Translations under genes and position numbers: made by a program
The notes under the pieces: model-generated
Databases searched by the model: none
What the model was told of the DNA's origin: nothing
Seen by the model: the letters and a program-made list of their open reading frames with translations, nothing else
Part shown: in pieces, positions 1-11,730 of the stretch
How positions within the stretch are numbered: the first letter of the stretch is position 1
How the letters are laid out: the number at the start of each line of letters is the position of its first letter
Assembly: GCA_903853735.1 (NCBI GenBank)
Contig: CAINUH010000211.1
Location: forward strand, 1-11,730
Source of the DNA: an uncultured Desulfomonile sp.
GTDB lineage: Bacteria; Desulfobacterota; Desulfomonilia; Desulfomonilales; Desulfomonilaceae
Length of the DNA stretch: 11,730 bases
Direction of reading: 5' to 3'

Positions 1-2
1 CC

Positions 3-68
3 ATGCTCAAGGATGGAAAGACGTTTCTTTGGGAAGATGCCTTGAGCGAGTGGTGTCTGGGCAAATGA
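3..68 (+). CDS. Possible 3' end of an upstream gene
   Basis: This short open frame runs from the window edge to a TGA at 66-68 and ends in the residues EDALSEWCLGK. It could be the C-terminus of a gene that begins before the window. It could also be chance, because a second frame stays open through base 112. There is too little sequence to name a family. From here to the convergent stop at 206 I see no other gene. The stretch contains a short palindrome (CTCTTAAAAGAG, 192-203) with no T-tract, so it is not a convincing terminator. Confidence 0.25.
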   Translation: MLKDGKTFLWEDALSEWCLGK

Positions 69-205
69 TCTATGCCACAGCAGCTCTAAGGGGTATCAAT
101 CACTCGGTTTAAATTCGTCTCCGGCCGGTTCTTGTGTCAATTATTTTTTCGAGATGGCGCAGGCCACATTTTGGCCAATGCCGCCATTTGGCTCTTAAAA
201 GAGTC

Positions 206-475
206 TTACTCACTTTCCGGTGACTTGGCTCCAGCCTTTCCCTCCAATTGTTTCTTGGACTCGAGATAGAGTTGGCGAATTTCTTCCAGGCGTTCCGCGG
301 AAAGATGGTATCTCTCGTCTCTGGGAGGCGGCTGATTCATCTGATGACTATTCCATTTGGCCTGATCGGCCTCAGGGCGGTTCACCGCCGCGGTCGATTG
401 GGCATGGGATGTGGCCAATGAAAGGAAGCAACCCGCCAAGAAGATCAATATAGTCAGGTGAATGACCAGCCTCAT
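206..475 (-). CDS. Small exported protein of unknown function (89 aa)
   Basis: The frame is open further upstream, but the ATG at 475 is preferred. It has a GGGGAGG Shine-Dalgarno (482-488 on the minus strand) six bases upstream, and the protein then begins with a textbook signal peptide: MRLVIH followed by a hydrophobic core to about residue 21. Two processing sites are possible: a lipobox-like LAGC (residues 13-16) or a signal-peptidase-I site after SHA (residue 25). The second looks better because the hydrophobic run continues past Cys16. The mature part is short, hydrophilic and charged, with a PPPRDERYH segment and then a likely amphipathic helix (about residues 58-80), and no enzyme motif. 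It is probably periplasmic or surface-associated. I do not recognise the family. It is the only minus-strand gene and has no evident link to the metabolic genes. Confidence 0.6.
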   Translation of the reverse strand: MRLVIHLTILIFLAGCFLSLATSHAQSTAAVNRPEADQAKWNSHQMNQPPPRDERYHLSAERLEEIRQLYLESKKQLEGKAGAKSPESE

Positions 476-797
476 TACAAGCCTCCCCAGTTGATACGAG
501 CCCCCAACGAGGGGGTAACAAAGCCTAAAGAGATTATCCTTTTCCTTAACAGGAAACAACTACCGATAACTTGACGAATCTGCAATGCCTTTTCAGAAGA
601 CCAGTTTATTTGCTCGACACCATCGGCTGTCTTCAAGCATAATTTCTTTCGAAAGATGTACATCCCGGACAGAGTCGCCAATCACAGAACCTCGGAATAA
701 CTTGTGATGGCTTGCTCTGGTCTTCGATGCCGTGAACTCTACGAAAGTCATCATCAAAATTCATAAATGACCTGAATCCAGACGGAAATACGGACAA
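476..797. other. Intergenic region between divergent genes
   Basis: About 320 bases separate the minus-strand exported-protein gene from the plus-strand peptidase-like gene. The minus-strand leader contains a CCCCC/GGGGG hairpin (501-515) and, further upstream, a GATAAT-like box with no good -35 partner. No RNA gene is seen. A short minus-strand open frame here has no ribosome-binding site and no recognisable motif. Confidence 0.4.
501..515 (-). promoter_or_regulatory. Leader hairpin upstream of the exported-protein gene
   Basis: CCCCC-AACGA-GGGGG forms a five G:C-pair stem with a five-base loop, 25 bases upstream of the ATG at 475. It lies between a possible promoter and the GGGGAGG ribosome-binding site. 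The C-run could alternatively pair with that G-rich site, so an effect on translation is conceivable. There is no T-tract, so it is not an intrinsic terminator. Confidence 0.25.
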
Positions 798-1247
798 ATG
801 CCTTCAACCCCCTCTGAAGAGATACATCGCAGAATTTCCTCGCTGCAAGCGGCCATGATTAGGGAAGGATTCGAAGGAGCCCTCATAATCCAACGCGCAG
901 ACCTTTTTTACTTTTCCGGCAGCGCTCACGATGCTCATCTTTTCGTCCCTGCTGAGGGATCGCCCATTCTTCTGGTGCAGAAGAATCTCGAGATGGCTGC
1001 CGAGGAATCCCCTTTGGATTATGTGATTTCCGCCGCGGAATTTTCTGACCTGAGAAGCGCAATAGAATCAGCTTACGGTCCTCTGATGTACCTGGGAATG
1101 GAATTGGACGTACTGCCGGTAAATCTTTACCGGAGGTACGAACAGCTATTTGCTGGCACACAGATCAAAGACTGTTCAATGATTATCAGGACAGTTCGGA
1201 TGTTTTGTGGTTACCGATTGAGGCATGGAAAAGCTCACACGATTTGA
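798..1247 (+). CDS. Truncated M24 (Xaa-Pro peptidase/creatinase-like) N-terminal domain
   Basis: The protein (149 aa) matches the creatinase-type N-terminal domain that precedes the catalytic pita-bread domain in M24 Xaa-Pro dipeptidases. It has RRISSLQAAM then GFEGALIIQRADLFYFSGS (about residues 11-42), a substrate-side beta-strand region, and IIRTVRM near residue 130. In the family that last motif is normally followed by K-S-P/D-x-E-I and the metal-binding catalytic domain. Here it is followed by FCGYRLRHGK and a stop, and I find no catalytic-domain residues in any frame of the next 300 bases. It is therefore probably a gene remnant rather than a working peptidase; metal ligands and catalytic residues are all absent. 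The ATG at 798 has only a weak G-rich upstream sequence. A free-standing regulatory or scaffold domain is a less likely alternative. Confidence 0.55.
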   Translation: MPSTPSEEIHRRISSLQAAMIREGFEGALIIQRADLFYFSGSAHDAHLFVPAEGSPILLVQKNLEMAAEESPLDYVISAAEFSDLRSAIESAYGPLMYLGMELDVLPVNLYRRYEQLFAGTQIKDCSMIIRTVRMFCGYRLRHGKAHTI

Positions 1248-1285
1248 TGATGAGATTCAGGTGCTTCATTAGGTCAGCAATGATG

Positions 1286-1317
1286 CCGTCTTCAGTTGGG
1301 CGTAACGGCGAAGACGG
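1286..1317 (+). promoter_or_regulatory. Stem-loop upstream of the thiolase
   Basis: The arms CCGTCTTC (1286-1293) and GAAGACGG (1310-1317) are perfectly complementary around a 16-base loop. The loop itself contains GTT/AAC, which can extend the pairing. It is not followed by a T-run. It sits directly before a possible -35 box at 1320 and could be an operator-like or RNA element. Confidence 0.3.
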
Positions 1318-1319
1318 GG

Positions 1320-1349
1320 TTGACTACCGGGATGATGGTGCAGTATGCT
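1320..1349 (+). promoter_or_regulatory. Candidate sigma70 promoter for thiolase/DUF35
   Basis: TTGACT (1320-1325) and TATGCT (1344-1349) are 18 bases apart, agreeing with the -35 and -10 consensus at five and four of six positions. The site is about 200 bases upstream of the thiolase ATG, which would give a long leader. The match could be due to chance. Confidence 0.25.
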
Positions 1350-1548
1350 AAATGAGTGGTTATAACGATTCGCGTTCAAACATGTAAGGCAAAGGACAAA
1401 AGGCATTGGTGGCGACGGGCCGTGGACGATACCCGGGAAATGGCTGCTGGTATCATTCATGCCGAGAGATAATGCACCTTAGTTAAAGGCCTCTTTTCTA
1501 CACGAGCTTTCAGCCGGGGTGCCAGACCCTGACAGTAAGGAGGAACGC

Positions 1549-2727
1549 ATGTCAAGGCAGGGAGACAGAGTGGCAATCGTGGCCGCGGGCATGACCCGAT
1601 GGGGCAAGCGGGCGGCCACGTTCAGAGACCTCGTGGCCGAGGCGGGAAAGGCCACTTTTGACGCTAATCCGAACATCAAACCAGGCGACATAAAATCTTT
1701 TATCATATCCACGGTGTACCCCGAGCGCTCAGCCTTCCAAGGGCATCCGGCACCGCTCGCTGCTGAGTGGTGCGGGGTGAGACCGAGTGAGTTTCACTGC
1801 CGGGTGGAGAATCAGTGTGGAAGCGGTACCACTGCGATCCGTACGGCCTACGCCGCTATCAAGAGTGGCCTGACGCAAATGGTTATGTGCGTAGGAGCGG
1901 AGAAGATATTGATACCGTCCCACGAAGAGATCTTCCTGAATGCCATGGCCGGCTGTGATCGTGAGTGGGAAGCCTGCTTCGGGGTGACTCCCCCGCCCCT
2001 GTTTGCCATGGTTGCACAGGCACACATGAAACGATACGGTACCACCGAGGAGCAGTTGGCCTTGGTAGCGGTAAAAAACCACAATCATTCTCTGAGCAAT
2101 CCGTACGCTCATCATCAAAAGGGCGCCACGTTGGAGCAGGTGATGACGTCTCGTCCCATTGCCAGCCCTTTGAAGCTCTTCGATTGCTCCACCAACACAG
2201 ACGGCGCCGCAGGAGTAATCGTCGCTACCGAGGAACTTGCCAGGGACCTCTGCGACCAGCCAGTCTATATCCTTGGTACGGCACAGATCAATGACGGCTA
2301 TCCATGGGCCAATTATCATAAGGACTGGTCTTCGTGGCCCGCACTCAAAACCGCCGGAGAGAAGGCGTACCAGATGGCGGGCATTAGTCCGAGCGACGTT
2401 GACCTCGCAGAAGTCCACGATTGCTTTTCCATTTCTGAAATATTGGAATATGAGGAATTGGGCTTCTGCCCGAAAGGGGAGGGCGGCCGATTCGTGGAAA
2501 GTGGAATGGCTGACTTTGGAGGCAGGGTAGTGATCAATCCCAGCGGGGGCCTTATGGCATGCGGCCATCCCTTTGGTGCTACCGGGATCAGGCAGGCGTA
2601 CGAGTCCTTCGTGCAACTGCGAGGCGAGGCCGGCGATCGCCAGGTGCCAGGGGCCAAGATTGCACTGACCCATAATCTGAGCGGCTTGGGAGAACATCAC
2701 CTTTTGGTGTACGGGAGGGAATCATGA
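1549..2727 (+). CDS. SCP-x-type thiolase / acetyl-CoA acetyltransferase family
   Basis: This 392-aa protein is a full-length thiolase of the non-decarboxylating SCP-x-like branch. It catalyses CoA-dependent cleavage of a beta-keto acyl-CoA, or the reverse condensation. Motifs are in the expected order: nucleophile Cys90 in NQCGSGT, HDCF at about 290-293, and GGLMACGHPFGATG with the acid/base Cys338 and His340. The C-terminus has the usual NLSGLGEHH segment. The start is the ATG at 1549, because TAAGGAGG (1536-1543) lies five bases upstream; an in-frame GTG at 1519 lacks such a site. The stop overlaps the start of the DUF35 gene by ATGA, implying translational coupling. Thiolase-DUF35 pairs are known as obligate complexes, for example BbsB/BbsA in anaerobic toluene degradation and related bacterial steroid side-chain enzymes. 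The substrate here cannot be read from the sequence; a bulky acyl-CoA is plausible. Confidence 0.9.
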   Translation: MSRQGDRVAIVAAGMTRWGKRAATFRDLVAEAGKATFDANPNIKPGDIKSFIISTVYPERSAFQGHPAPLAAEWCGVRPSEFHCRVENQCGSGTTAIRTAYAAIKSGLTQMVMCVGAEKILIPSHEEIFLNAMAGCDREWEACFGVTPPPLFAMVAQAHMKRYGTTEEQLALVAVKNHNHSLSNPYAHHQKGATLEQVMTSRPIASPLKLFDCSTNTDGAAGVIVATEELARDLCDQPVYILGTAQINDGYPWANYHKDWSSWPALKTAGEKAYQMAGISPSDVDLAEVHDCFSISEILEYEELGFCPKGEGGRFVESGMADFGGRVVINPSGGLMACGHPFGATGIRQAYESFVQLRGEAGDRQVPGAKIALTHNLSGLGEHHLLVYGRES

Positions 2728-3191
2728 CGGCAGCGAGAGATATCGAAGGCTACATAGTTGATCGCAACGTTTACAGTATGGATCCGGTACCGCTGGAAGC
2801 GAAAGAATATAACCGCATTTATCCATTCTATGATCACTTGAAGCAGGGACGGCTGACTACCACACAATGTGTCGATTGCGGCCACATTTGTTGGCCCCCT
2901 CGTATCGTGTGTCCACAGTGCATTTCGGATCAGTTGGATTGGGTGGATTTTCCAAAAGTAGGGCACGTCTATGCATACACCGTCCAACAAAATGGGAACC
3001 CACCCGGTTTTCCTGCTCCCATGATATACGCGCTCATAGATTTCGACAACGGAGTGCGCATTATTTGCCCCGTGGTGGACTGCAAACCCGAGGATGTCGA
3101 GTTTGGGTCCGAAGTAGTGCTCAAGGTCGTACCCGCTCCCAGGGACCGGGTACTGTTCTTCTTTCAACTCAAATCAAAGTCCCACCAATAA
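2724..3191 (+). CDS. DUF35 OB-fold protein with Zn-ribbon, thiolase partner
   Basis: The 155-aa protein has the DUF35 layout. An N-terminal helical stretch contains YPFYDHLKQGRLTTTQC. It is followed by a rubredoxin-like zinc ribbon of two CxxC pairs, Cys49/Cys52 and Cys63/Cys66, and then an OB-fold beta-barrel from about residue 75 (DFPKVGHVYAYTVQQ, then a PMIYALIDFDNGVRI strand). Members bind acyl-CoA and are structural or catalytic partners of SCP-x-like thiolases and of related hydratases. GGGAGG lies five bases upstream of the ATG, and the ATGA overlap couples it to the thiolase. It has no enzyme active site of its own. It most likely forms a heteromeric complex with the thiolase, as BbsA does with BbsB. 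Confidence 0.85.
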   Translation: MTAARDIEGYIVDRNVYSMDPVPLEAKEYNRIYPFYDHLKQGRLTTTQCVDCGHICWPPRIVCPQCISDQLDWVDFPKVGHVYAYTVQQNGNPPGFPAPMIYALIDFDNGVRIICPVVDCKPEDVEFGSEVVLKVVPAPRDRVLFFFQLKSKSHQ

Positions 3192-3290
3192 ACCCGGAGC
3201 GAGTGTTTCGGCAGAGGATTATCATTATCCCTGAGCAAATATTAGTGATCAACTATCTGATATCATAATGACAGTTGACTAGGGTGACGT

Positions 3291-3443
3291 ATGTTGCCTA
3301 ATTATATTAAGCCAAAAGCATTCCTAGAGGGGATTCGCACCACCCCACACATGATGAAATGGTGTATACAACTAGGATCCAAACAGCGAACAGTCCGGAC
3401 GCGTGCAGAGCATGTGCGTAACCATTTTAAATGGCGAGAATAA
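3291..3443 (+). CDS. Possible small protein (50 aa), unknown
   Basis: This is an ATG-to-TAA frame with an AGGGTG sequence four bases upstream. The protein is basic (MLPNYIKPKAFLEG at the start, RAEHVRNHFKWRE at the end) with no signal peptide or recognisable motif. It sits in a gene-poor spacer, so it could be a genuine small protein, the stub of a decayed gene, or chance. I do not recognise it. Confidence 0.2.
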   Translation: MLPNYIKPKAFLEGIRTTPHMMKWCIQLGSKQRTVRTRAEHVRNHFKWRE

Positions 3444-3514
3444 ACAACTGTTACCCGAGCGAGGGGAAGTCAAGGTGGTCATTCAGCGTCGAGAAGGCAA
3501 TCACAACATTTGTC

Positions 3515-3543
3515 TTGACAAACTCAAAACCTAATGGTATTAG
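3515..3543 (+). promoter_or_regulatory. Candidate sigma70 promoter with overlapping inverted repeat
   Basis: A perfect TTGACA (3515-3520) is followed after 17 bases by TATTAG (3538-3543). The perfect inverted repeat CCTAAT-GGT-ATTAGG (3530-3544) overlaps the -10 box, which is a typical place for a repressor site. It lies about 300 bases upstream of tetR. The target gene is uncertain. Confidence 0.3.
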
Positions 3544-3803
3544 GTCATGAGGGGATGTCACAAGGTTCTCAGTATAAAAATTACAGAATAATAGTTGGTT
3601 ATGTATCTTTGTGATAATATGAATACGTGGCAGGCGTTTGGGCAATTCCCTATTCACAAGGATCCTATGAGTGCCTGACTCAGTAGCCTGGACGTGTTAA
3701 TCCGGCGGCCGTCAATACGAGGCAGGTCGTCTAAGAAAGGCGGTTGCGCTCGATCATCAGAAACAGACCCGAACTCAATGGTTGTGGCAGTATCGCTGAG
3801 TTG

Positions 3804-3817
3804 TGTTTACGTAAACA
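3804..3817. promoter_or_regulatory. 14-bp palindromic operator candidate upstream of tetR
   Basis: TGTTTACGTAAACA is a perfect palindrome, ending 23 bases before the TTG start of the TetR gene and immediately upstream of its AAGGAG ribosome-binding site (3825-3830). TetR-family repressors commonly bind such sites in their own promoters. I infer autoregulation. I see no second copy before the thiolase or the OYE gene. Confidence 0.5.
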
Positions 3818-3840
3818 GGGACTGAAGGAGCGGAAGACTC

Positions 3841-4455
3841 TTGGGCCTGAGCAAGAAGGGAGAAGATACCAGGGAGCGGATAGTCAGTAGCGCCAAAGCT
3901 CTGTTTGCCGAGAACGGATTCCAAAAAACTACCGTTGTGGATATATGCAGGCAAGCCGGTCTTTCGGAGGCGGCCCTTTACGAGTACTTCAAGGGCAAGG
4001 AAGACCTCCTGTTAGCTATCCCCGACCTTTGGGTCTCCCAGCTTCTCGCGGACCTGGAGGATCAGATGTACGGAATTAAGGGAGCCTTCAACAAGCTGAG
4101 AAAATATATATGGTGGACTTATCGCCGTGTTGAGGAGTCACCCTTGGATGCCAAGATTGTTTATCTGTTTCTTAAGACAAACGCTAACTTCATGGAGACG
4201 CCTGTATATGCAAACGTGGCAGCTCTCTATCATTATATTATTGACATATTTGAGGAAGGTAGACTGTCCGGGGAAATGAAGCCGGACTTGGACCCTTATG
4301 TGGCCAGAAGCATCGTCATAGGCACTATGGATTACACGGTGATGCGGTGGCTGCTCAAGAACATGGCATATTCACTAGAAGAGAAGCTGGAAGAAACCTT
4401 TGAGTTATTCGTGGACGCCTTCTCAAATAAGGGACAGAGAGCAGCCAAGTCCTAG
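3841..4455 (+). CDS. TetR/AcrR-family transcriptional regulator
   Basis: The 204-aa protein has the N-terminal TetR DNA-binding domain: TRERIVSSAKALFAENGFQKTT leads into a helix-turn-helix at about residues 31-51 (VVDICRQAGLSEAALYEYF), then KGKEDLL. The rest is an all-helical ligand-binding/dimerisation domain of normal length for the family. The start is TTG at 3841: an in-frame TGA at 3823-3825 excludes any start further upstream, and AAGGAG lies ten bases before it. The C-terminal part has an aromatic-rich helix (KYIWWTYRRVEE) that resembles acyl-CoA-responsive members, but the ligand is unknown. Its place between the thiolase pair and the reductase genes suggests it controls one or both, probably as a repressor released by an acyl-CoA intermediate. 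That role is inferred. Confidence 0.9.
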   Translation: MGLSKKGEDTRERIVSSAKALFAENGFQKTTVVDICRQAGLSEAALYEYFKGKEDLLLAIPDLWVSQLLADLEDQMYGIKGAFNKLRKYIWWTYRRVEESPLDAKIVYLFLKTNANFMETPVYANVAALYHYIIDIFEEGRLSGEMKPDLDPYVARSIVIGTMDYTVMRWLLKNMAYSLEEKLEETFELFVDAFSNKGQRAAKS

Positions 4456-4684
4456 TCTGGAATGGGGAAAAATAATCGCGCGGTTTGTTGACGAAAAGGA
4501 TAGAACGATGTCCCGTTATTGCTTGATGCACGGGGTCCGTCAAGGACGGCGTCTTCAATCTTCCAATTATAGGCAAGGCATCAACTACTGCTAAGACAGT
4601 ATTGTAGGATTGCGCCGACTGCAATGAGGCAGGAGGCAAGAATCATTGGCCGGTATTTTCAGTGATCAAGGAGGGAGTCTCAAT

Positions 4685-5245
4685 ATGGCCAAACAACTGT
4701 TCGAATGGGACTACAGCAAGTATTCTGGGGCCAAGAAATACCCCAATCTTTTCAAATCTATTCAAATCGGAAACCTTGTTATCCCAAACAGGGTGAAGTA
4801 CGCCGCCACTGAAGACAATCTGAACGACCATCACGGCTTCGTTACGGACGCGGACGTCGCCTACATCCGGTCGCGGGCCGAGGGCGTGGTAGGCGGTTTG
4901 TGCTTTATGCAGGGAGTGTACATGGATCCACCCCACAAAGGGCAGGGATATGTGGGTCAGGCTGCTGCATGGGATGATAAGTACATTCCAGGCCTAAAAA
5001 GACTGGCTGACGCGATCCACGGAGAGAAGGCCGTTGCAGGCTTCCAACTCATGGACTGCGGAAGGGTCGGTTCGGTGGATGTGCCATTTGGCCACGGACC
5101 CTCGACGGTACCGCAGCGCCTCCGTATTTTCAGGCCTATGCATGAGATGACCAAGGCCGAGATTAAGGAGGTGGTCAACAGCACATCGATGCGGCTAAGC
5201 GCGGAGTGGAGGCAGGCTTTGACATCATCGAAATCTCAGGAATAG
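4685..5245 (+). CDS. OYE-family (2,4-dienoyl-CoA-reductase-like) N-terminal part, frameshifted
   Basis: This is the first half of the FMN-binding TIM barrel of an NADH:flavin-oxidoreductase/old-yellow-enzyme protein. It includes YPNLFKSIQIGNLVIPNRVKYAATEDN (about residues 19-45), the GFVTDADVAYIRSRA segment and IFRPMHEMTKAEIKEVVN (about 148-165). The expected QL.H.GR motif reads QLMDCGR, with Asp124 in the usual His position. After about 5178 the frame reads residues unlike the family and stops at 5245, while the family sequence continues in the frame one base back, so the two frames form one gene of about 663 aa. ATG 4685 has AAGGAGGG upstream. An in-frame TTG at 4646 also has an AGGAGG and would add 13 residues. 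Bases 4456-4684 show no clear promoter or terminator. Confidence 0.8.
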   Translation: MAKQLFEWDYSKYSGAKKYPNLFKSIQIGNLVIPNRVKYAATEDNLNDHHGFVTDADVAYIRSRAEGVVGGLCFMQGVYMDPPHKGQGYVGQAAAWDDKYIPGLKRLADAIHGEKAVAGFQLMDCGRVGSVDVPFGHGPSTVPQRLRIFRPMHEMTKAEIKEVVNSTSMRLSAEWRQALTSSKSQE

Positions 5246-6675
5246 TGGGTTACCTGGTGTCCAACTTTATTTCGAGCTACACCAACCGCCGCACCGATGA
5301 GTATGGCGGGGACATACGGGGCCGCATGAAGGCGGTAGTGGAAATCATCCAGGGGGTTAAAGCCGCAATAGGCCCGGATATCCCTTTGGGTATTCGGCTT
5401 TGCTGCATGGAACTCTTGGACGACGTGCGCGGCAATACGCCGGAGGAGTCCATTGAGACCTACAAAATCTCCGAGGAGGCAGGCATAGACTACATCAGCG
5501 TCACCGCCGGCTGGCAAGAGTCCATCGTACCCGTGATAAGCCGTGACGTGCCCATGGGCTCGTGGCTACACTTGGCCAAGAAGGCCAAGCAGCACGTAAA
5601 GGTGCCCATACAAATGGCCTACCGCCTTTTTGTGCCTGAACTGCCGGACAAGGCCATTGCCGCGGGCGAACTTGATATCTGGGAGATTTGCCGTTCCATG
5701 ATTGCTGATCCTCTGATGCCCAAGAAGGTGTTGGAGGACAGGCAGGAGGAGATACGACACTGCGTGGCCTGCAACTTGTGCCTGGCGCGCCTGTTCCGAG
5801 ATGCTCCCATGACCTGCTACATCAATCCGCTGTGCGCCCACGAGCACGACCCGAAATACTACCCGCAACCGGTGGCTGAGGACGAAAAGAAAATTGTGAT
5901 GATCGCCGGTGCAGGCCCGGCCGGTATGGAATGCGCTTATGTAGCCGCCCAGAGGGGACACGAAGTGCATGTCTATGACAAGCGTGAGTTGAAGGGCGGC
6001 ACCATCCTGGAAGCCTCTCAGGCCCCCTACGGGGATGACGAACTCATGACCTGCATCAAATACCAGAAAGCCATGTGCGAAAAGTACGGCGTCCAGTTCC
6101 ATCTTGGGACCGAGGTTACTCCGGAACTCATAAGCGAGGAGATGCCGGATGTTGTCGTCTTGGCCACAGGCCCGGTATACGCGCAGCTCAAAGGCGCCGA
6201 CCCAGGGGACAAACGATTGGTTAACGTGCTGGACGTGTTGAGCGGCAAGGCCGAAGTTGGAAACAAGGTGGTGGTGTGGGGCAACCGCAAACCCGGCATT
6301 GGCGTGGCGCTGGATTTGGCCAAGAAGGGAAAGAAAGTAACCATCGTGGGGCGGGAAAAATCCGCAGGATTCGACGTCAACCCCTCGTTTAAGTGGCGTT
6401 ATATGATCTATCTTCGCCAGAACGGCATCAGCGCCTACAACGACTGCGATATTGCCCAGATCGGCGACGGGGTGGTCATGGTGAAGACATACGACGGGTA
6501 TCTCTTCCCGGTCCCGTGCGACACTGTGGTGATCACTGAGCGCCAGGCCAATGACAATCTGAAGGAAGTTGTGCAGGGAGAAGGCATCCAACTTTTTGTC
6601 ATCGGTGATGCTTTGGTTCCGCGCAATCTTTCCAGTGCGGTACACGACGGCTACCGGATCGGTCTGAGAATTTAG
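5206..6675 (+). CDS. OYE-family (2,4-dienoyl-CoA-reductase-like) C-terminal part: 4Fe-4S, FAD and NAD(P)H domains
   Basis: This is the remainder of the split reductase. Family sequence is already present in this frame from about 5182 (HIDAAKRGVEAGFD), before the first possible start, GTG 5206. The barrel continues with EISGIVGYL and SSYTNRRTDEYGGD; the EI.G...GYL form is that of 2,4-dienoyl-CoA reductases. A [4Fe-4S] motif follows, C-x2-C-x2-C-x11-C (codons at 5761, 5770, 5779 and 5815), one residue shorter in the second gap than in E. coli FadH and closer to trimethylamine dehydrogenase. Next come the FAD motif GAGPAG (about 5908), a degenerate NAD(P)H-binding loop (VVWGNRKPGIGVALD) and the closing FVIGDALVPR motif. 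Such enzymes pass hydride from NAD(P)H through FAD, Fe-S and FMN to an unsaturated acyl-CoA. Anaerobic relatives include 2-naphthoyl-CoA-reductase-like enzymes. The substrate is not determined. Confidence 0.85.
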   Translation: MEAGFDIIEISGIVGYLVSNFISSYTNRRTDEYGGDIRGRMKAVVEIIQGVKAAIGPDIPLGIRLCCMELLDDVRGNTPEESIETYKISEEAGIDYISVTAGWQESIVPVISRDVPMGSWLHLAKKAKQHVKVPIQMAYRLFVPELPDKAIAAGELDIWEICRSMIADPLMPKKVLEDRQEEIRHCVACNLCLARLFRDAPMTCYINPLCAHEHDPKYYPQPVAEDEKKIVMIAGAGPAGMECAYVAAQRGHEVHVYDKRELKGGTILEASQAPYGDDELMTCIKYQKAMCEKYGVQFHLGTEVTPELISEEMPDVVVLATGPVYAQLKGADPGDKRLVNVLDVLSGKAEVGNKVVVWGNRKPGIGVALDLAKKGKKVTIVGREKSAGFDVNPSFKWRYMIYLRQNGISAYNDCDIAQIGDGVVMVKTYDGYLFPVPCDTVVITERQANDNLKEVVQGEGIQLFVIGDALVPRNLSSAVHDGYRIGLRI

Positions 6676-6690
6676 TCAGGAGGTTTAACT

Positions 6691-7218
6691 ATGTCCTTCG
6701 ATGCGGAAAAAGAGATAAGCAAACTGTGGCGCAATCTTCACAGCGCTCACGATGAAATCGGGAAAACCTACATGAGATGGCGTCAGGTGGCTCTGGAACT
6801 GGCAGGGCCCCAGGCGGATCCCCTGGATGTGAGCCTCAAGGCGGCAGAACGTATGGGCCTGGACATGGGCAAGAGCTGGCTTCCCCGCCTCAATTGGACC
6901 AAAGGCGAAGAGGCTTGGTTAATGGGTCTAGCCCAGAGTTACGCGGGGCAGTGGATCAACCAAGGCGCCATTGTCAAGCTTGAAAAGGGCGAAAAACCCT
7001 TCGAAGTCTTCATCAAGTGGGAAAGATGCCCTTGGCCTACCTATTCCAAGGAGTACGGCGTTCCCATGGAAGAAGATGTGCGCTGCTGCGACAGGATTCT
7101 GCAGTCAGTCCTGAAGGACGTGAACATATTTTTCAATGTGAATTACAACATCGAGACCTTGAAGGCGATTCCAAGGGGCCAGGGAATTTGCCTCAGAAGG
7201 CTCTATAAAGTCGGGTAA
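6691..7218 (+). CDS. Conserved-looking Cys-containing protein (175 aa), possibly ATC-hydrolase/V4R-like
   Basis: The gene starts 15 bases after the reductase stop and has AGGAGG seven bases before the ATG, so it is very likely cotranscribed. The protein is soluble, with an N-terminal helical half and a mixed alpha/beta C-terminal half. No signal peptide or membrane segment is seen. The C-terminal pattern is Cys113 in WERCPWP, Cys132-Cys133-Asp in RCCDRIL, then DVN, and IPRGQGIC with Cys167. It resembles the spacing in L-2-amino-thiazoline-4-carboxylate hydrolase-like (V4R-related) proteins, where C...C..D...N...G...C is common. That assignment is by eye and weak. Position suggests an accessory subunit or a small-molecule-binding partner of the reductase pathway. 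I do not claim an activity. Confidence 0.7.
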   Translation: MSFDAEKEISKLWRNLHSAHDEIGKTYMRWRQVALELAGPQADPLDVSLKAAERMGLDMGKSWLPRLNWTKGEEAWLMGLAQSYAGQWINQGAIVKLEKGEKPFEVFIKWERCPWPTYSKEYGVPMEEDVRCCDRILQSVLKDVNIFFNVNYNIETLKAIPRGQGICLRRLYKVG

Positions 7219-7238
7219 GCACGACAGGAGGGCATGAA

Positions 7239-7445
7239 ATGGCTGCTCAGATCGATCCTAATAAATGCACAATGTGTGGGGGGACAGTTCAACCCCTGTG
7301 TATCGAAGCCTGTCCGGATTCTGCGATCAGGGTCCAGGACAACCGAGTGGTGGTCACCGAGTTTATTTGTGAGGACTGCAACGAGTGCGGTTGCGTGTGC
7401 CCTGACAAGGCCATCTCGGTGCCGCTGGAGAAGGTGACCTTCTAA
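7239..7445 (+). CDS. 2[4Fe-4S] ferredoxin (68 aa) with atypical first cluster
   Basis: Two cluster-binding motifs are visible. The first is unusual, C10-x2-C13-x7-C21-x3-C25-P, with a GGTVQPL insertion where most have two residues. The second is C44-x2-C47-x2-C50-x3-C54-P with an extra Cys52 inside. An extended second-to-third cysteine gap is known in one cluster of Allochromatium-type low-potential ferredoxins. The start at ATG 7239 is chosen over the out-of-frame ATG 7234 because only this frame encodes the motifs, and GGAGGG lies upstream. It is a cytoplasmic electron carrier and, by position, a likely electron donor or acceptor for the adjacent reductase. Confidence 0.85.
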   Translation: MAAQIDPNKCTMCGGTVQPLCIEACPDSAIRVQDNRVVVTEFICEDCNECGCVCPDKAISVPLEKVTF

Positions 7446-7474
7446 GTGTTCAAGGCCCTTGGCTCTGGGTACAT

Positions 7475-7506
7475 GGCCATCAGGGAACGGGTGTTCCCGG
7501 ATGGCC
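7475..7506 (+). promoter_or_regulatory. Strong intercistronic hairpin
   Basis: The arms GGCCATCAGGGAAC (7475-7488) and GTTCCCGGATGGCC (7493-7506) pair at 13 of 14 positions around a GGGT loop. No T-run follows, so it is not an intrinsic terminator. It lies between the ferredoxin stop and the ribosome-binding site of the VOC gene. It could stabilise the upstream mRNA, mark a processing site or reduce read-through. Confidence 0.55.
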
Positions 7507-7532
7507 CAACGAGTGGGAACTAGGAGGCGACT

Positions 7533-7967
7533 ATGAAAGTGAACAAGCTGGACCATATTTGTATAGCGGTCAAGAACCTGGATGAGGCCCGCAAAGTATG
7601 GGAACCGCTTTTGGGAAAGGATAAGCCGGACGACGCCTATATAGATGAGCCGGAGAAGATCAGGGTGGCTCGTTACTGGGTGGGAGAGGTGGGCTTCGAA
7701 CTGATGGAATCCACTACACCCGACGGCGATGTGGCCAAGTTTGTTGAGAGGCGGGGTGAGGGCGTCATGCTCATCAGCTTCAATGTGAACAATACCCGTG
7801 AGGCAGTTAACGAGTTGCAGGGCAAGGGCTATCCCTTCATTCCCGACCATAGAGGAGAGATCGCCCGGCCCTTTCGTGACTGCGAGTTCGCTTTTGTGCA
7901 TCCAAAGAAGCTTAATGCGGTCTTGACCGAGTTGATTGATTACAAGTGGGAGGAACTGAAGAAGTAG
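7533..7967 (+). CDS. VOC-family protein, methylmalonyl-CoA-epimerase-like but lacking the HH motif
   Basis: The 144-aa protein has two beta-alpha-beta-beta-beta modules typical of glyoxalase/VOC proteins and closest in layout to methylmalonyl-CoA epimerase. It has LDHICIAVKNLDEA (His8 as first metal ligand), FELMES (Glu56 at the second ligand position), GEGVMLISFNVNN and FVHPK...LTELI (Glu133 as last ligand). In epimerases the third segment is normally GxHHIAF with a metal-binding His; here it reads Met79-Leu80. The metal site would therefore lack one ligand, so standard epimerase activity is doubtful. AGGAGG sits five bases before the ATG. In this context it may act on, or simply bind, an acyl-CoA intermediate of the pathway. 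Confidence 0.8.
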   Translation: MKVNKLDHICIAVKNLDEARKVWEPLLGKDKPDDAYIDEPEKIRVARYWVGEVGFELMESTTPDGDVAKFVERRGEGVMLISFNVNNTREAVNELQGKGYPFIPDHRGEIARPFRDCEFAFVHPKKLNAVLTELIDYKWEELKK

Positions 7968-8090
7968 CTTCCCGGGGTGGTCTGCTGCCCGTCCTCTTGC
8001 ACTGCATGCACGTAAATAGCAGCACTGGTCGGCTCTGCAAAGGCGGTACTTCTCAAGCTTATATCGTTGGTCAAAAATTCCGTCTGGTTT

Positions 8091-8162
8091 CCTGGGAGTG
8101 CAGGCATCTTGCCTGCCCACAACTGTTGTACCTTTTGCAGGCTGGAAGCCTGCGCTCCCAGG
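8091..8162. repeat. REP-like double-hairpin palindromic element
   Basis: The outer arms CCTGGGAGTGCAGGC (8091-8105) and GCCTGCGCTCCCAGG (8148-8162) are complementary at 14 of 15 positions. Each outer arm also forms its own small hairpin with an inner copy: GCAGGC-ATCTT-GCCTGC (8100-8116) and GCAGGC-TGGAA-GCCTGC (8137-8153). This GCAGGC/GGGAG architecture is that of dispersed intergenic palindromes, and I recall closely similar sequence in many environmental bacterial genomes. Translated, it yields the familiar spurious peptide SAGFQPA. It may be mobilised by a RAYT-type transposase elsewhere. It has no coding capacity itself. Confidence 0.65.
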
Positions 8163-8212
8163 GAGATTCATGCTTGAGAGTTGACAGCGAATCGGAAACT
8201 AATTTTGACACC

Positions 8213-8221
8213 TGCTATAAC
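8213..8221 (+). promoter_or_regulatory. Candidate extended -10 promoter for ferredoxin/HdrA genes
   Basis: TGCTATAAC matches an extended -10 (TGnTATAAT) at all but the last base. Two perfect TTGACA hexamers lie upstream (8181-8186 and 8205-8210), but neither is at the normal 16-18-base spacing. Such spacing is not needed for an extended -10 promoter. The site is about 70 bases before the second ferredoxin gene. Confidence 0.35.
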
Positions 8222-8291
8222 GCCCCAGGGAGCGGCAGACCACCCTTATCCCCACCCCCGGTCGGTAATGGCACCGGATTAGGCGGAGATA

Positions 8292-8501
8292 ATGGCCAAA
8301 CAATACCGCACCTATGAAGTTTACATGGTCTATGTGGATGAAGACAAGTGTGATGGGTGCAAAGAGTGCGACTACTACTGTCCGGTGAATGTCTTTGACG
8401 TTTTTCAGAAGGCCTATGCGGTGAGACCCCAGAACTGTCTTGGCTGCCGAACATGTGTGGCAGTGTGCAAATCAAAAGCTATAGTGATTACTGAAATATA
8501 A
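8292..8501 (+). CDS. 2[4Fe-4S] ferredoxin (69 aa)
   Basis: After a short N-terminal strand (YEVYMVYVDEDKC) the protein has two standard cluster motifs: C20-x2-C23-x2-C26-x3-C30-P and C49-x2-C52-x2-C55-x3-C59, the second followed by Lys rather than Pro. The length is normal for a bacterial-type ferredoxin. It differs from the other ferredoxin in this window in having no insertion in its first motif. The ATG is preceded by GGCGGAG. It lies 106 bases before the first HdrA-like gene, so it probably exchanges electrons with the HdrA pair. The 8502-8607 gap has a T-run after GGGGG (about 8569-8580) but no stable stem, so read-through is likely. Confidence 0.88.
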   Translation: MAKQYRTYEVYMVYVDEDKCDGCKECDYYCPVNVFDVFQKAYAVRPQNCLGCRTCVAVCKSKAIVITEI

Positions 8502-8607
8502 TACCGCTTGCCAACTACCTGGCGCCCCCTATTATGGACAGACTCCCTATGTTGGGTAGGCATAACTGCGGGGGAATTTTTTCTTTGGCCCTTAACGAGG
8601 TGCTGAC

Positions 8608-9954
8608 ATGAGTGAGCCCATTCTGATAATCGGTGCGGGCGTGGCGGGAATCAACTGTGCTCTGAACGTCGCGGACTATGGGGTAAAGGCCTATCTGGTT
8701 GACGATACACCCAGTATCGGAGGCATGATGGCCCGCCTGGATAAGACTTTCCCCACCAATGACTGCTCTATTTGTATAGAAGCCCCTCAAATGTACAAAG
8801 TGGATAATCATCCCAACATTGAAATCCTCACAAACACAGAGCTGAGAAGGGTCAAGAAGACTAATGACTCCTTTCAGGTCAGGCTGGTGAAAAAGGCTCG
8901 CTTTGTCGATGAGGAGAAATGCACGGGCTGCGGCGCTTGTATAGAGGCCTGCCCGGTCACCCTGCCTGACGAGATGGATGGCAAAGTCGGCGGCAAGCGC
9001 AAGCTTATCTACATGCCATTTCCTCAGGCGGTACCAAATGTGGTGGTCCTGGATCCCGAGTGCCGTTACGGCAAGAAGCGATCAGACGGCTCATGCGTAG
9101 GCGGCTGCGTGGTGGATTGCGGCCAATGCCGCGAGTGTCCGATTGCCCTTTGCGTGAAAGCCTGTCTAAAGGAAGGAAAGGACGCCGTTCGGCTCTGGCA
9201 GGCCAACAAGAACATCGATCTGAAAGTGAAGAGCATCGTAGTGGCTACAGGTATCCGAGACTACAAACCTCCCCAGGGTCTTCACGGATACGGCCTGCAC
9301 GAAAACGTCATCACCAACTTGCAGTTCGAAAGATTGATGAACGCCGGCGGGCCTACCTCAGGGCATATCATTCGCCCCTCGGATGGCCGAGGCGCCAGGA
9401 ACATAGCCTGGTTTCAGTGCGCGGGCCGGGGTCTAAGCCAAGGAGTTCCCTACTGCTCCAAAGTGTGCTGCATGATAGCCACCAAGCAGACCATCATCAC
9501 CAAAGAGCACGACGCGGGAGTGCAGGCCGCCATATTTTTCAATGACCTCAAAGCTTACGGAAAAGGCTTTTGGGATTTCTACAAGAAAGCCAAGGAGAGT
9601 GGTGTCCGCTACGTCAAAGGCCGTCCCTACGATGTGCTGGAAAATCATGAAACTAAGAATCTATTGGTGCGCTACGAAGAACTGGAATCCGGCCTGCTCA
9701 AGGAAGAAGAGTTTGATCTTGTGGTACTGTCCACAGGTCTAGTTCCCAGTGAGCGGAACCAGCAGCTTGCCAAAGTGTTAAATATCGAATTAGACAGCCT
9801 GGGTTACTTCAAGGAGAAAGATCCCCTGACCGCGCCTCTTGAAACCAAGGTCGAGGGCATTTACCTGTGCGGTGGAGCCACTGGTCCCATTGACATTTCC
9901 GAATCAGTGGTCCAGGCCACCGCAGCAGGTATGAAAGCGGTCTCTGTCAAATAG
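8608..9954 (+). CDS. HdrA-like FAD/Fe-S protein, short form with inserted Cys-rich ferredoxin domain
   Basis: The 448-aa protein starts directly with the HdrA flavin domain: GAGVAG (residues 9-14), then SIGGMMARLDKTFPTNDCSIC with Cys53/Cys56. An inserted ferredoxin domain follows, with C105-x2-C108-x2-C111-x3-C115-P and an extra Cys-rich part (Cys152, 163, 167, 171, 174, 177, 182, 186). The flavin fold then resumes with VVATG, the HdrA motif PYCSKVCC (Cys283/287/288) and the closing CGGATGPIDISESV. It lacks both the N-terminal HdrA domain and the C-terminal ferredoxin domain. HdrA proteins hold the bifurcating FAD of heterodisulfide reductase and related complexes; QmoA is a similarly short relative. 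The ATG has GAGGTG upstream. Only 15 bases separate it from the next gene. It is likely cytoplasmic and a subunit of an electron-transfer complex. Confidence 0.85.
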   Translation: MSEPILIIGAGVAGINCALNVADYGVKAYLVDDTPSIGGMMARLDKTFPTNDCSICIEAPQMYKVDNHPNIEILTNTELRRVKKTNDSFQVRLVKKARFVDEEKCTGCGACIEACPVTLPDEMDGKVGGKRKLIYMPFPQAVPNVVVLDPECRYGKKRSDGSCVGGCVVDCGQCRECPIALCVKACLKEGKDAVRLWQANKNIDLKVKSIVVATGIRDYKPPQGLHGYGLHENVITNLQFERLMNAGGPTSGHIIRPSDGRGARNIAWFQCAGRGLSQGVPYCSKVCCMIATKQTIITKEHDAGVQAAIFFNDLKAYGKGFWDFYKKAKESGVRYVKGRPYDVLENHETKNLLVRYEELESGLLKEEEFDLVVLSTGLVPSERNQQLAKVLNIELDSLGYFKEKDPLTAPLETKVEGIYLCGGATGPIDISESVVQATAAGMKAVSVK

Positions 9955-9969
9955 GCGAGGATTATTTCA

Positions 9970-11727
9970 ATGGGTGAAGATATCCGTATAGGTGTTTTTA
10001 TTTGTGATTGCGGCTCGAACATCGCAGGCTTCGTGGACGTGCCCGCGCTGGTGGAGTACTCCAAGGCCATGCCCCACGTTGCTTTTGCTGATGAAGGCAA
10101 ATGGTCTTGTTCGGTGGATTATCTCTCCCGTCTTCAGAATTTCATTAAAGAGCATGAACTCAACCGAGTGGTGATAGCCTCCTGCACCCCGAGAACCCAT
10201 GAGTCGTTGTTCAAGAATTCAGTGAGAGAGGCTGGGCTCAACCCCTACCTCCTTGAGTTCGTAAGCATCAGGGAGCAGGTGTCCTGGGTACACATGGCCG
10301 ACCGGGAGCGGGCCACCCAAAAGGCCAAGGATCTCATCAAGATGGGGGTAGCCAAGGCTGCTCTGTTGGAGGAAGGCGAGGAGATAAGGCTGCCTGTCGG
10401 CAAGTCTTGCCTCGTTATCGGTGGCGGGATCGCAGGCATGAGTACCGCCCTCGCGGTTGCAAATCAAGGCTTCTCGGCCGTAATAGTGGAAAAGGAACCG
10501 CAGTTGGGAGGCCTGTTGAACCAGGTGTTCGTGATCTCCCATGAGCACGGCAAAATGCCCACTGCAAGCATACGAAAAGACAAGATCGAACAAGTTTTGT
10601 CCAATCCCAACATAACGGTATTCATCGATACACTGATCGAAGAAGTTGCCGGGTACATTGGAAACTACAAGGTCAGGCTCAAGAAAAGGGGAGAAGACGA
10701 TGTCATGGGCCAGACATTGGACATCTCTACCATTGTCGTGGCCACGGGTATGAAAGAGGTCGAGCCCACCAATCAGTTTGAATATGGAAATGATCCCCGT
10801 GTGATCACCCAACTGCAACTGGAGAGGCTTCTTGCTGAACAGGCAGTGGGAAACTTCAAAGACGTTGTCATCATTAATTGCGTTAATTCCAAGAACGAAG
10901 TCAGATGTTGTTGCAACCTGGGCTGCCACGTGGCGGTCAAAAACGCCTACGCCCTGAAAAAGATCAGCAAGGATTGCCGAGTTCATATCCTTTACCGTGA
11001 TCTCAGTCTGGTCAGGGAGGAGCATTTCCATCTGGATGCAGCCAAGGAGGCGGGCGTCAAGTTCATCAGGTTCCCGGACGACCGGTACCCCGAGGTGATA
11101 AGAGAAAACGGCTCTCTGAAGGTCCAGGTTCGCGACATCCTGCTGGGTCGAGATTTTACACTGCCGGCGGACCTCCTGGTAGTCACTACGGCCTTCCAGG
11201 GAGACCCCACGGTAGGAGACATCAAGGGTCATCTCAAGGTATCCGCGAACTCCGACGGTTTTTTCCAGGAGGCCCATGTGAAGTTGGGGCCCGTGGATTT
11301 CCCCGCGGACGGCCTCGGTTTGGCCGGGTGCGCCAAGTCGCCGAAAACCTTCAAGGAGAGTTGTGAGGAAGGCATAGCCGCTGCCATGCGCGTCTCGATC
11401 CCCATGAACCGGGGTTATATCGAAGCAGAAGGCATAGTGGCGGACATAGATCTAAGCCGGTGCAACAAATGCGGCCTCTGTCACAGAAAGTGTCCTTACA
11501 CGGCCATCCGGGTCTCAGAGGACAAGGAACCCACCGTGATAAAGGCCCTCTGCAAGGGGTGCGGACTGTGCGCTGCCGACTGCCCACAGGAGTGCATCAC
11601 CATTGTTCACTTCTCGGACGAGCAGATCATGGCCCAAGTGGAGGCAGCGCTGGAAGAGGAACCGGCAAAAAAGATCGTGGGTTTCGTGTGTCACTGGTGC
11701 GCCCTTGGCGGGGTGGACATGGCCTAA
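9970..11727 (+). CDS. HdrA-like FAD/Fe-S protein with C-terminal 2[4Fe-4S] domain and truncated MvhD domain
   Basis: The 585-aa protein has the modules its neighbour lacks. An HdrA N-terminal domain (RIGVFICDCGSNIAGFVDV; Cys12, Cys14, Cys47; Cys72 in SCTPR) comes first; its IREQ-C-SWVH motif has Val104 where most HdrA have Cys. A flavin domain follows (GGGIAG, 151-156, with VVATG and CCCNLGCH near 313-320) with no inserted ferredoxin. A C-terminal ferredoxin domain has C498/501/504/508 and C528/531/534/538. After the linker, KKIVGFVCHWCALGGVDMA matches the first residues of an MvhD [2Fe-2S] domain, but TAA at 11725 ends the frame there. The layout is that of QmoB or of an HdrA-MvhD fusion cut short. 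TTTCA spacing and GCGAGGA precede the ATG. It probably pairs with the short HdrA upstream. Confidence 0.85.
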   Translation: MGEDIRIGVFICDCGSNIAGFVDVPALVEYSKAMPHVAFADEGKWSCSVDYLSRLQNFIKEHELNRVVIASCTPRTHESLFKNSVREAGLNPYLLEFVSIREQVSWVHMADRERATQKAKDLIKMGVAKAALLEEGEEIRLPVGKSCLVIGGGIAGMSTALAVANQGFSAVIVEKEPQLGGLLNQVFVISHEHGKMPTASIRKDKIEQVLSNPNITVFIDTLIEEVAGYIGNYKVRLKKRGEDDVMGQTLDISTIVVATGMKEVEPTNQFEYGNDPRVITQLQLERLLAEQAVGNFKDVVIINCVNSKNEVRCCCNLGCHVAVKNAYALKKISKDCRVHILYRDLSLVREEHFHLDAAKEAGVKFIRFPDDRYPEVIRENGSLKVQVRDILLGRDFTLPADLLVVTTAFQGDPTVGDIKGHLKVSANSDGFFQEAHVKLGPVDFPADGLGLAGCAKSPKTFKESCEEGIAAAMRVSIPMNRGYIEAEGIVADIDLSRCNKCGLCHRKCPYTAIRVSEDKEPTVIKALCKGCGLCAADCPQECITIVHFSDEQIMAQVEAALEEEPAKKIVGFVCHWCALGGVDMA

Positions 11728-11730
11728 TCG

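Follow-up and report, generated by a model that had tools for sequence, protein, structure and literature searches.

We found that an 11,730-nucleotide stretch of DNA from an uncultured Desulfomonile sp. (contig CAINUH010000211.1 of assembly GCA_903853735.1, positions 1 to 11,730 of the forward strand; hereafter the window) carries most of a conserved operon built around a flavoprotein of the old yellow enzyme (OYE) family, followed by a 175-residue protein without family match (U175), two ferredoxins (Fd1 and Fd2), a VOC protein and a pair of HdrA-like proteins (HdrA1 and HdrA2). The OYE belongs to the clade of 2-naphthoyl-CoA reductase (NCR), a type III aryl-CoA reductase, and the gene set is widely shared and unstudied in anaerobes. 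We give about an even chance to the reading that the operon encodes a reductase of the NCR clade that acts on a small cyclic or aromatic acyl-CoA and receives its electrons from an HdrA-based bifurcation module by way of dedicated ferredoxins; for this reading we infer both the substrate and the direction of electron flow.

Conservation of the operon and its copy in the window

Using U175 as the marker, its alignment and two peptide patterns led to at least 41 loci in the GTDB genome collection. The order (TetR)-OYE-U175-ferredoxin-VOC-ferredoxin-HdrA1-HdrA2/FlpD, with an HdrC/NfnB-like gene after it, recurs in Desulfobacterota and Planctomycetota. The operon is also present, rearranged, in Chloroflexota and Actinomycetota: the HdrA genes have the opposite orientation in L030 (Chloroflexota) and come first in L033 (Actinomycetota), and Fd2 is unmatched in both. 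Over 36 bacterial loci, with each gene scored only where the flank was sufficient, we found the OYE in 35/36 (in L023 as a C-terminal piece only), Fd1 in 35/35, the VOC gene in 32/32, Fd2 in 24/30, HdrA1 in 28/30 and HdrA2 in 23/24; a TetR gene lies upstream of the OYE in 15 of the 28 that have at least 3.2 kb before U175. In archaea, five loci contain the OYE and U175 together with a ferredoxin, the latter weak in three; a thiolase and a DUF35 gene accompany these genes in two of the five, and in L036 HdrA-like genes lie farther off, at about 4-5 kb. By search, U175 was found in 7 of 297 Desulfobacterota genomes, the very genomes in which a close OYE group (at least 67% identical to that of L010) was found. 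In gene order the window is matched best by L007, from a metagenome-assembled genome (MAG) named Desulfomonile tiedjei, which shares the order thiolase (88% identity), DUF35 (69%), TetR (74%) and OYE. Since order and sequence are kept across phyla, the window genes form a conserved operon, beyond chance. An earlier sequence-only reading of this DNA had linked the OYE, ferredoxins and HdrA genes and had proposed looking for their order in other Desulfobacterota; the linkage is kept in other genomes and the order recurs there, rather than the homologues being scattered. We found no description of the operon among the open-licence papers listed, nor in the available parts of PMC6502838, PMC13101529, PMC12016498, PMC13416013, PMC13101534, PMC4103992, PMC12137691 and PMC13365417.

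ORF (open reading frame) calls and family searches give 11 genes or gene pieces in the window, all on the + strand, from 1549 to the window end:

1549..2727, +, thiolase, SCP2-type, loosely linked to the operon (Pfam Thiolase_N/C)
2724..3191, +, ChsH2/DUF35 OB-fold thiolase partner (PF01796, PF12172)
3841..4455, +, TetR regulator, FadR/YsiA type (PF00440, PF08359)
4685..5245, +, OYE N-terminal piece, first half of the FMN barrel (PF00724)
5206..6675, +, OYE C-terminal piece: remaining FMN barrel, 4Fe-4S linker, FAD/NAD domains (PF00724, PF07992)
6691..7218, +, U175, 175 residues, without family match; predicted TRAPP/V4R/MopR-like fold
7239..7445, +, Fd1, 2[4Fe-4S] ferredoxin (Cx2Cx7Cx3C, Cx2Cx2Cx3C)
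7533..7967, +, VOC protein, methylmalonyl-CoA-epimerase-like, one metal-ligand position altered (PF13669)
8292..8501, +, Fd2, 2[4Fe-4S] ferredoxin (PF00037 twice)
8608..9954, +, HdrA1, HdrA-like FAD protein with its own 4Fe-4S insert (PF07992, Fer4)
9970..11727, +, HdrA2, cut at the window end; C-terminal FlpD/MvhD domain in relatives (Fer4, Pyr_redox_2)

All genes of the earlier list are present on the + strand, but the OYE is not a single reading frame here and HdrA2 is incomplete. The OYE consists of two overlapping ORFs in different frames, with the frame lost at window 5180-5245. Its N-terminal piece is 82% identical to residues 1-165, and its C-terminal piece 80% identical to residues 175-663, of the intact 663-residue OYE of L007. 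The break may be a real mutation or a sequence error. Among the 41 fetched loci the OYE is a single frame in 38, some running to a contig end; the other three are L006 (cut by its contig), L037 (which starts within U175) and L023 (a 187-residue C-terminal piece). HdrA2 runs into a stop codon 3 bases short of the window end (11700-11730), in the middle of the FlpD/MvhD motif; this motif is present in 25 of 27 relative ORFs, all 25 of which read beyond the window's stop point, and the stop is likely an end artefact. Further operon genes are split in single loci (HdrA1 in L009, HdrA2 in L021, the NfnB-like gene in L017). Upstream of the thiolase the sole family match is a Creatinase_N domain alone (an M24 peptidase fragment, 798-1247); L020 and L034 also have M24 and HyuA-like genes, downstream of their operons. 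An Rfam search of the window gave no match.

The OYE and its place in the NCR clade

In a 48-row tree, the OYE falls with NCR; in the trees it stands apart from FadH and from paralogues, and a reciprocal search agrees. The best PDB match of the C-terminal piece is NCR (6qkg, 351 bits), as compared to 211 bits for FadH. The intact OYE of L010 has a barrel, a 4Fe-4S linker and an FAD domain (Pfam and fold model). The OYE cluster cysteines are residues 360, 363, 366 and 378, and these together with Tyr190, Tyr89, Arg238 and Glu334 match the cluster and Y197, Y82, R245 and E341 of NCR, with the exception of L004, which has Gln at the Glu341 position. In NCR, Glu341 beside Arg245 is tied to the low FMN potential, His284 activates Tyr197, Trp459 blocks the NADPH site and Phe375/Phe573 form a hydrophobic cluster; the donor is presumed to be a ferredoxin, and the published accounts, in their available parts, pin none down.

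When we compared the operon OYE with NCR and the type III aryl-CoA reductases, we found the clade and the three-domain fold in common. In contrast to NCR, the operon OYE has Gln at the position of His284 (38/38 aligned OYEs and the window C-terminal piece), and it lacks Trp459 and the Phe375/Phe573 pair. The operon also links its OYE to U175, the VOC protein and the HdrA module. In the 7.3-kb NCR-orthologue locus L101 no match to any of these three was found, and the available part of the account of the apr cluster does not mention them. Judged by sequence, the OYE is best placed as a sister family within the NCR clade and not as an NCR. With E. coli FadH it shares the architecture, FMN, FAD and 4Fe-4S cluster; FadH, however, is not a member of the clade, is without Glu341 and carries His26 and His252, neither of which was found in the operon OYEs. 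PDB scores, trees and residues thus rule out the FadH-like fatty dienoyl-CoA reductase family. The sequence-only reading had called the OYE FadH-like, a label that gives way to an alliance with NCR, and its proposal stood to fall if the OYE grouped with ordinary fatty-acid dienoyl-CoA reductases, a grouping that the trees do not contain.

Other loci carry related OYEs in different surroundings. Five loci (L076, L077, L078, L104, L105) have a Gln-bearing OYE followed by a ferredoxin in 4/5 (L104 is cut there) and a VOC gene 72-74% identical in 3/5, with no U175 or operon-type HdrA matched. Fourteen loci (L079-L089, L108-L110) have a His-bearing NCR-clade OYE with an NCR-like Phe pair, directly followed in 11 by a gene for a ferredoxin of 63-67 residues. 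In L090 and L091, an NCR-clade OYE adjoins genes that we labelled by eye as an acyl-CoA ligase and a branched-chain-type ABC transporter, with BcrAD-like ATPase genes (by eye) in L091 too. In the NCR relatives L102, L103 and P0282, WHE is replaced by MYE and WEMCR by WEMMR (rows L102 and P0282), and fumarate-reductase-like flavoprotein genes (by eye) lie beside those of L102 and L103.

Putative electron-supply genes and the two small proteins

The eight cysteines of Fd1 are invariant in 42/42 sequences, and its first motif has a long loop that we take to recall Alvin-type low-potential ferredoxins; Fd2 has its eight cysteines in 27/27. HdrA1 scores 447 bits against NF040770 (HdrA2), under the cut-off of 1100, and the HdrA2 of L010 has the FlpD domain PF02662 at residues 568-686. 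Beyond the point where the window ends, relatives have an HdrC/NfnB-like gene with Fer4_8, Fer4_20 and GltD-type FAD/NAD domains. This gene was matched in 22 loci (partially in L020 and in two pieces in L017), and 21 loci extend 1.5 kb past a full HdrA2; L020 has HdrC- and HdrB-like genes in its place, and HdrB was found only there and, weakly, in L006. By gene content, the HdrA FAD protein, the FlpD/MvhD domain and the NAD(P)H partner make up an HdrA-type module, in which the HdrC/NfnB-like protein may, by its domains, handle NAD(P)H. With HdrA-based bifurcation modules such as HdrABC-MvhD and FlxABCD-HdrABC the operon shares ferredoxins, an NAD(P)H module and an HdrA that bears an FlpD/MvhD domain; in contrast to these, it has an HdrA1 and HdrA2 pair, usually without HdrB.

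In four genomes, the nearest HdrA1 paralogues (38-45% identity) lie mostly in long frames of about 820-1114 residues, together with one separate 436-residue protein at 42% and 411- and 414-residue proteins at 30-32%; no QmoA was identified by name. QmoAB as the HdrA pair was only a lead and was rejected: the closer paralogues are mostly long frames and the 411- and 414-residue proteins more distant, although the 436-residue protein stands at 42%. The HdrA-containing frames of L115-L117, L119, L121, L124 and L130 (820-1047 residues) each have one in-frame TGA within the match, possibly a selenocysteine codon.

The sequence-only reading counted two small proteins as unexplained; U175 remains without a family match, but the other is a VOC protein resembling glyoxalases and methylmalonyl-CoA epimerase. 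U175 has 227 homologues and no sequence match to any family searched, the TRAPP, V4R and MopR member families included. Its model (pLDDT 88) resembles TRAPP subunits, the phenol sensors MopR/PoxR and the V4R protein MJ1460, at middling Z scores that may reflect a common arrangement only, so that the likeness to this small-molecule-binding fold is one of predicted structure. Of 161 aligned sequences, 138 have Cys113, Cys133 and Cys167; the remaining 23 have lost both Cys133 and Cys167 and have Cys or Asp at position 113, which rules out that U175 needs a metal site. The VOC protein scores 73 bits against TIGR03081, where 115 are needed. The HH motif of the epimerase is gone in the window VOC and in all 34 operon VOCs aligned, and is retained in a separate epimerase of L009. 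The other three epimerase ligand positions, which we take to belong to the metal site of methylmalonyl-CoA epimerase, are kept in 36/36 rows. In the alignment, then, the VOC protein appears to lack the full metal site of that enzyme.

Proposed function, aromatic metabolism and rival readings

In the proposed scheme, NAD(P)H would be oxidised by the HdrC/NfnB-like subunit, electrons would enter HdrA2 via its FlpD domain, and the HdrA flavin or flavins would split them. The OYE would act on a small acyl-CoA, probably monocyclic aromatic or cyclic unsaturated, that leads into a BamA-type ring-opening pathway; binding or presentation of the substrate would fall to U175, and isomerisation or epimerisation of the CoA ester to the VOC protein. 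A bifurcation-fed reductase is the best reading because a low-potential-type OYE, the operon ferredoxins and the HdrA/FlpD/NAD(P)H genes occur together; both the missing NCR Phe pair and the link to BamA point towards a monocyclic substrate.

The ring hydrolase BamA/Oah, scored by TIGR03200 (cut-off 464), is over the cut-off in 17/21 operon genomes. As compared to the pooled non-operon background (129/582), a Fisher test gives p ~4e-8 for genomes that are related and mostly marker-chosen; within the 297-genome sample alone, the counts are 5/7 operon and 59/290 other genomes (p 0.006). With BamA in 64/297 genomes of the phylum (Desulfobacterota) and in 72/294 of Planctomycetota, the gene is not rare. 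Thiolase-DUF35 pairs surround BamA in 5 of 17 fetched loci (L135, L137-L140), and the same gene types adjoin the operon in the window and in L007, L039 and L041; BamA-side and operon-side thiolases are 36-67% identical where compared. L138, L139 and L140 have a second type of BamA cluster, BamA-SDR (short-chain dehydrogenase/reductase)-thiolase-DUF35-enoyl-CoA hydratase, and the others are 68-85% identical to L140.

The sequence-only reading took the window's own thiolase pair for a BbsBA-like one in a single pathway with the OYE genes. The first part was too strong, as the pair scores far below both NCBIfam cut-offs (BbsB NF053628, 203 bits against 750; BbsA NF053627, 36 against 250), which excludes a BbsBA benzoylsuccinyl-CoA thiolase. 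The best NCBIfam model of the thiolase is PRK06064 (396 bits, cut-off 420), and its best PDB match is the archaeal-type acetoacetyl-CoA thiolase 6esq (249 bits), with BbsB 7pxp at 198 bits. The second part finds weak support at most, as a thiolase lies beside the operon in only 4/41 loci (L007, L039, L041 and, at 30%, L030). Mo-hydroxylase neighbours (L010, L041, partly L011) are too few to use.

Known benzoyl-CoA reductases occur in some of the same genomes. BamB (class II) was found at E 1e-150 or better in 11/21 operon genomes as compared to 77/297; the copy of G001 gives 1009 bits to 4z3w. BamB sits away from the operon (G003 has a 170-residue piece besides), and no AOR-like gene is among the window genes or the recurrent operon genes, so there is no BamB in the cluster. 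The bcrC model was over its cut-off in 0/20 operon genomes (all but G015), and a weak class I hit in the archaeon G014 is bzd-type over the cut-off (bzdN). The chromosome of a Methanomassiliicoccales archaeon (L181) has a bzd-type subunit (TIGR03190, 530 bits, over the cut-off), BamA and the operon core. In G002, a MAG chromosome record, BamA is present with one class I relative at 1e-20 that is HadC-like; no BamB was found at 1e-60 and no bcrC or bzdN over the cut-off, bzdN itself not having been searched genome-wide.

A stronger form of the proposal, which we hold only tentatively and think somewhat unlikely, is a new ring-reduction system in which the NCR-clade flavoprotein reduces monocyclic aryl-CoA or cyclic dienoyl-CoA, coupled by private ferredoxins to its own HdrA module. 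If true, the system would be a flavin-based parallel to the tungsten BamB-HdrA complex, would explain the source of low-potential electrons for type III reductases and could stand in for known benzoyl-CoA reductases in some genomes, such as G002. The catalytic subunit of the operon is a flavoprotein, whereas BamB is a tungsten protein, and the operon has an NfnB/GltD-like gene where the Bam complex has BamGHI; BamF is presumably MvhD-like. In common with BamBCDEFGHI, as far as the available part of PMC12016498 describes it, the operon would combine a low-potential acyl-CoA reductase with HdrA-, MvhD- and NAD(P)H-dehydrogenase-like parts.

Several observations weigh against a bifurcation-fed aromatic reductase. 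The OYE gene of the window is broken, and the catalytic-site His of NCR and FadH is, by alignment, replaced by Gln. Absence of Trp459 makes direct use of NAD(P)H by the OYE possible, and two published relatives, dihydro-2-naphthoyl-CoA reductase and AprC (40% identity), use NADH in the available parts of their accounts, so a direct route stays possible. No high-potential electron acceptor gene is fixed in the operon. Operon-type HdrA genes were not found nearby in the five archaeal loci, nor in L003, L023 and L073, where enough flank is at hand to show them, and HdrA is therefore not obligatory. BamA falls short of its cut-off in 4/21 operon genomes (454.8 in G027 and 379.7 in G016, both near full-length; partial in G015; none in G302), and related, non-independent genomes stand behind its co-occurrence. 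Finally, BamB in 11/21 operon genomes rules out that the operon replaces benzoyl-CoA reductases everywhere, and with a bzd-type enzyme in one archaeon the operon is no simple replacement.

Rather unlikely, in our view, is that the OYE reduces an ordinary straight or branched fatty-type enoyl- or dienoyl-CoA at high potential, which would let HdrA1/HdrA2 reduce ferredoxin with NAD(P)H and make Fd1 and Fd2 products; Bcd/Etf couples an exergonic acyl-CoA step to ferredoxin reduction in this way. The TetR regulator has Bacillus FadR as its best NCBIfam model (below the cut-off) and may, by family resemblance, respond to acyl-CoA; at the cluster threshold, 7/41 loci have a fused 3-hydroxyacyl-CoA dehydrogenase/enoyl-CoA hydratase next to the operon; a thiolase adjoins it in 4/41, and no ring-cleavage gene is fixed in the operon. 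The FadR-like regulator and the fused neighbours leave room for such a substrate; in contrast, the FMN-site residues Glu334 and Glu43 suggest a low-potential flavin, the clade is that of NCR and not of FadH, and BamA co-occurs. It is improbable that the OYE works oxidatively as a dehydrogenase, with HdrA confurcating ferredoxin and OYE electrons to NAD(P)+. HdrA complexes are reversible in principle, and histamine and trimethylamine dehydrogenases share the architecture, with electrons leaving through the cluster (PMC6502838, in the part available); however, these score 213 and 182 bits as compared to 454 for NCR (neither is in the trees), and residues of the NCR type speak for reduction. It is highly improbable that the cluster serves redox balance or biosynthesis, with a functional neighbourhood of TrpB2 (4/41 loci), IorA/IorB (IorA in 4/41) and SerA/SerC (L014 and L020, by eye), as these neighbours change sides from genome to genome and were found in few loci, and a patchy 7/297 distribution is unlike a housekeeping role.

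The operon extends the NCR clade to several phyla and to archaea, and adds U175, a widespread unannotated family, and a VOC protein whose metal site appears altered. It offers a concrete, testable donor chain of Fd1, Fd2, HdrA1, HdrA2/FlpD and the NfnB-like protein. An intact copy (L010) is present in Desulfocarbo indianensis, a named strain for which a genome record exists, so the question is open to tests in culture. The operon may thus help to show how relatives of the type III aryl-CoA reductases obtain their electrons.

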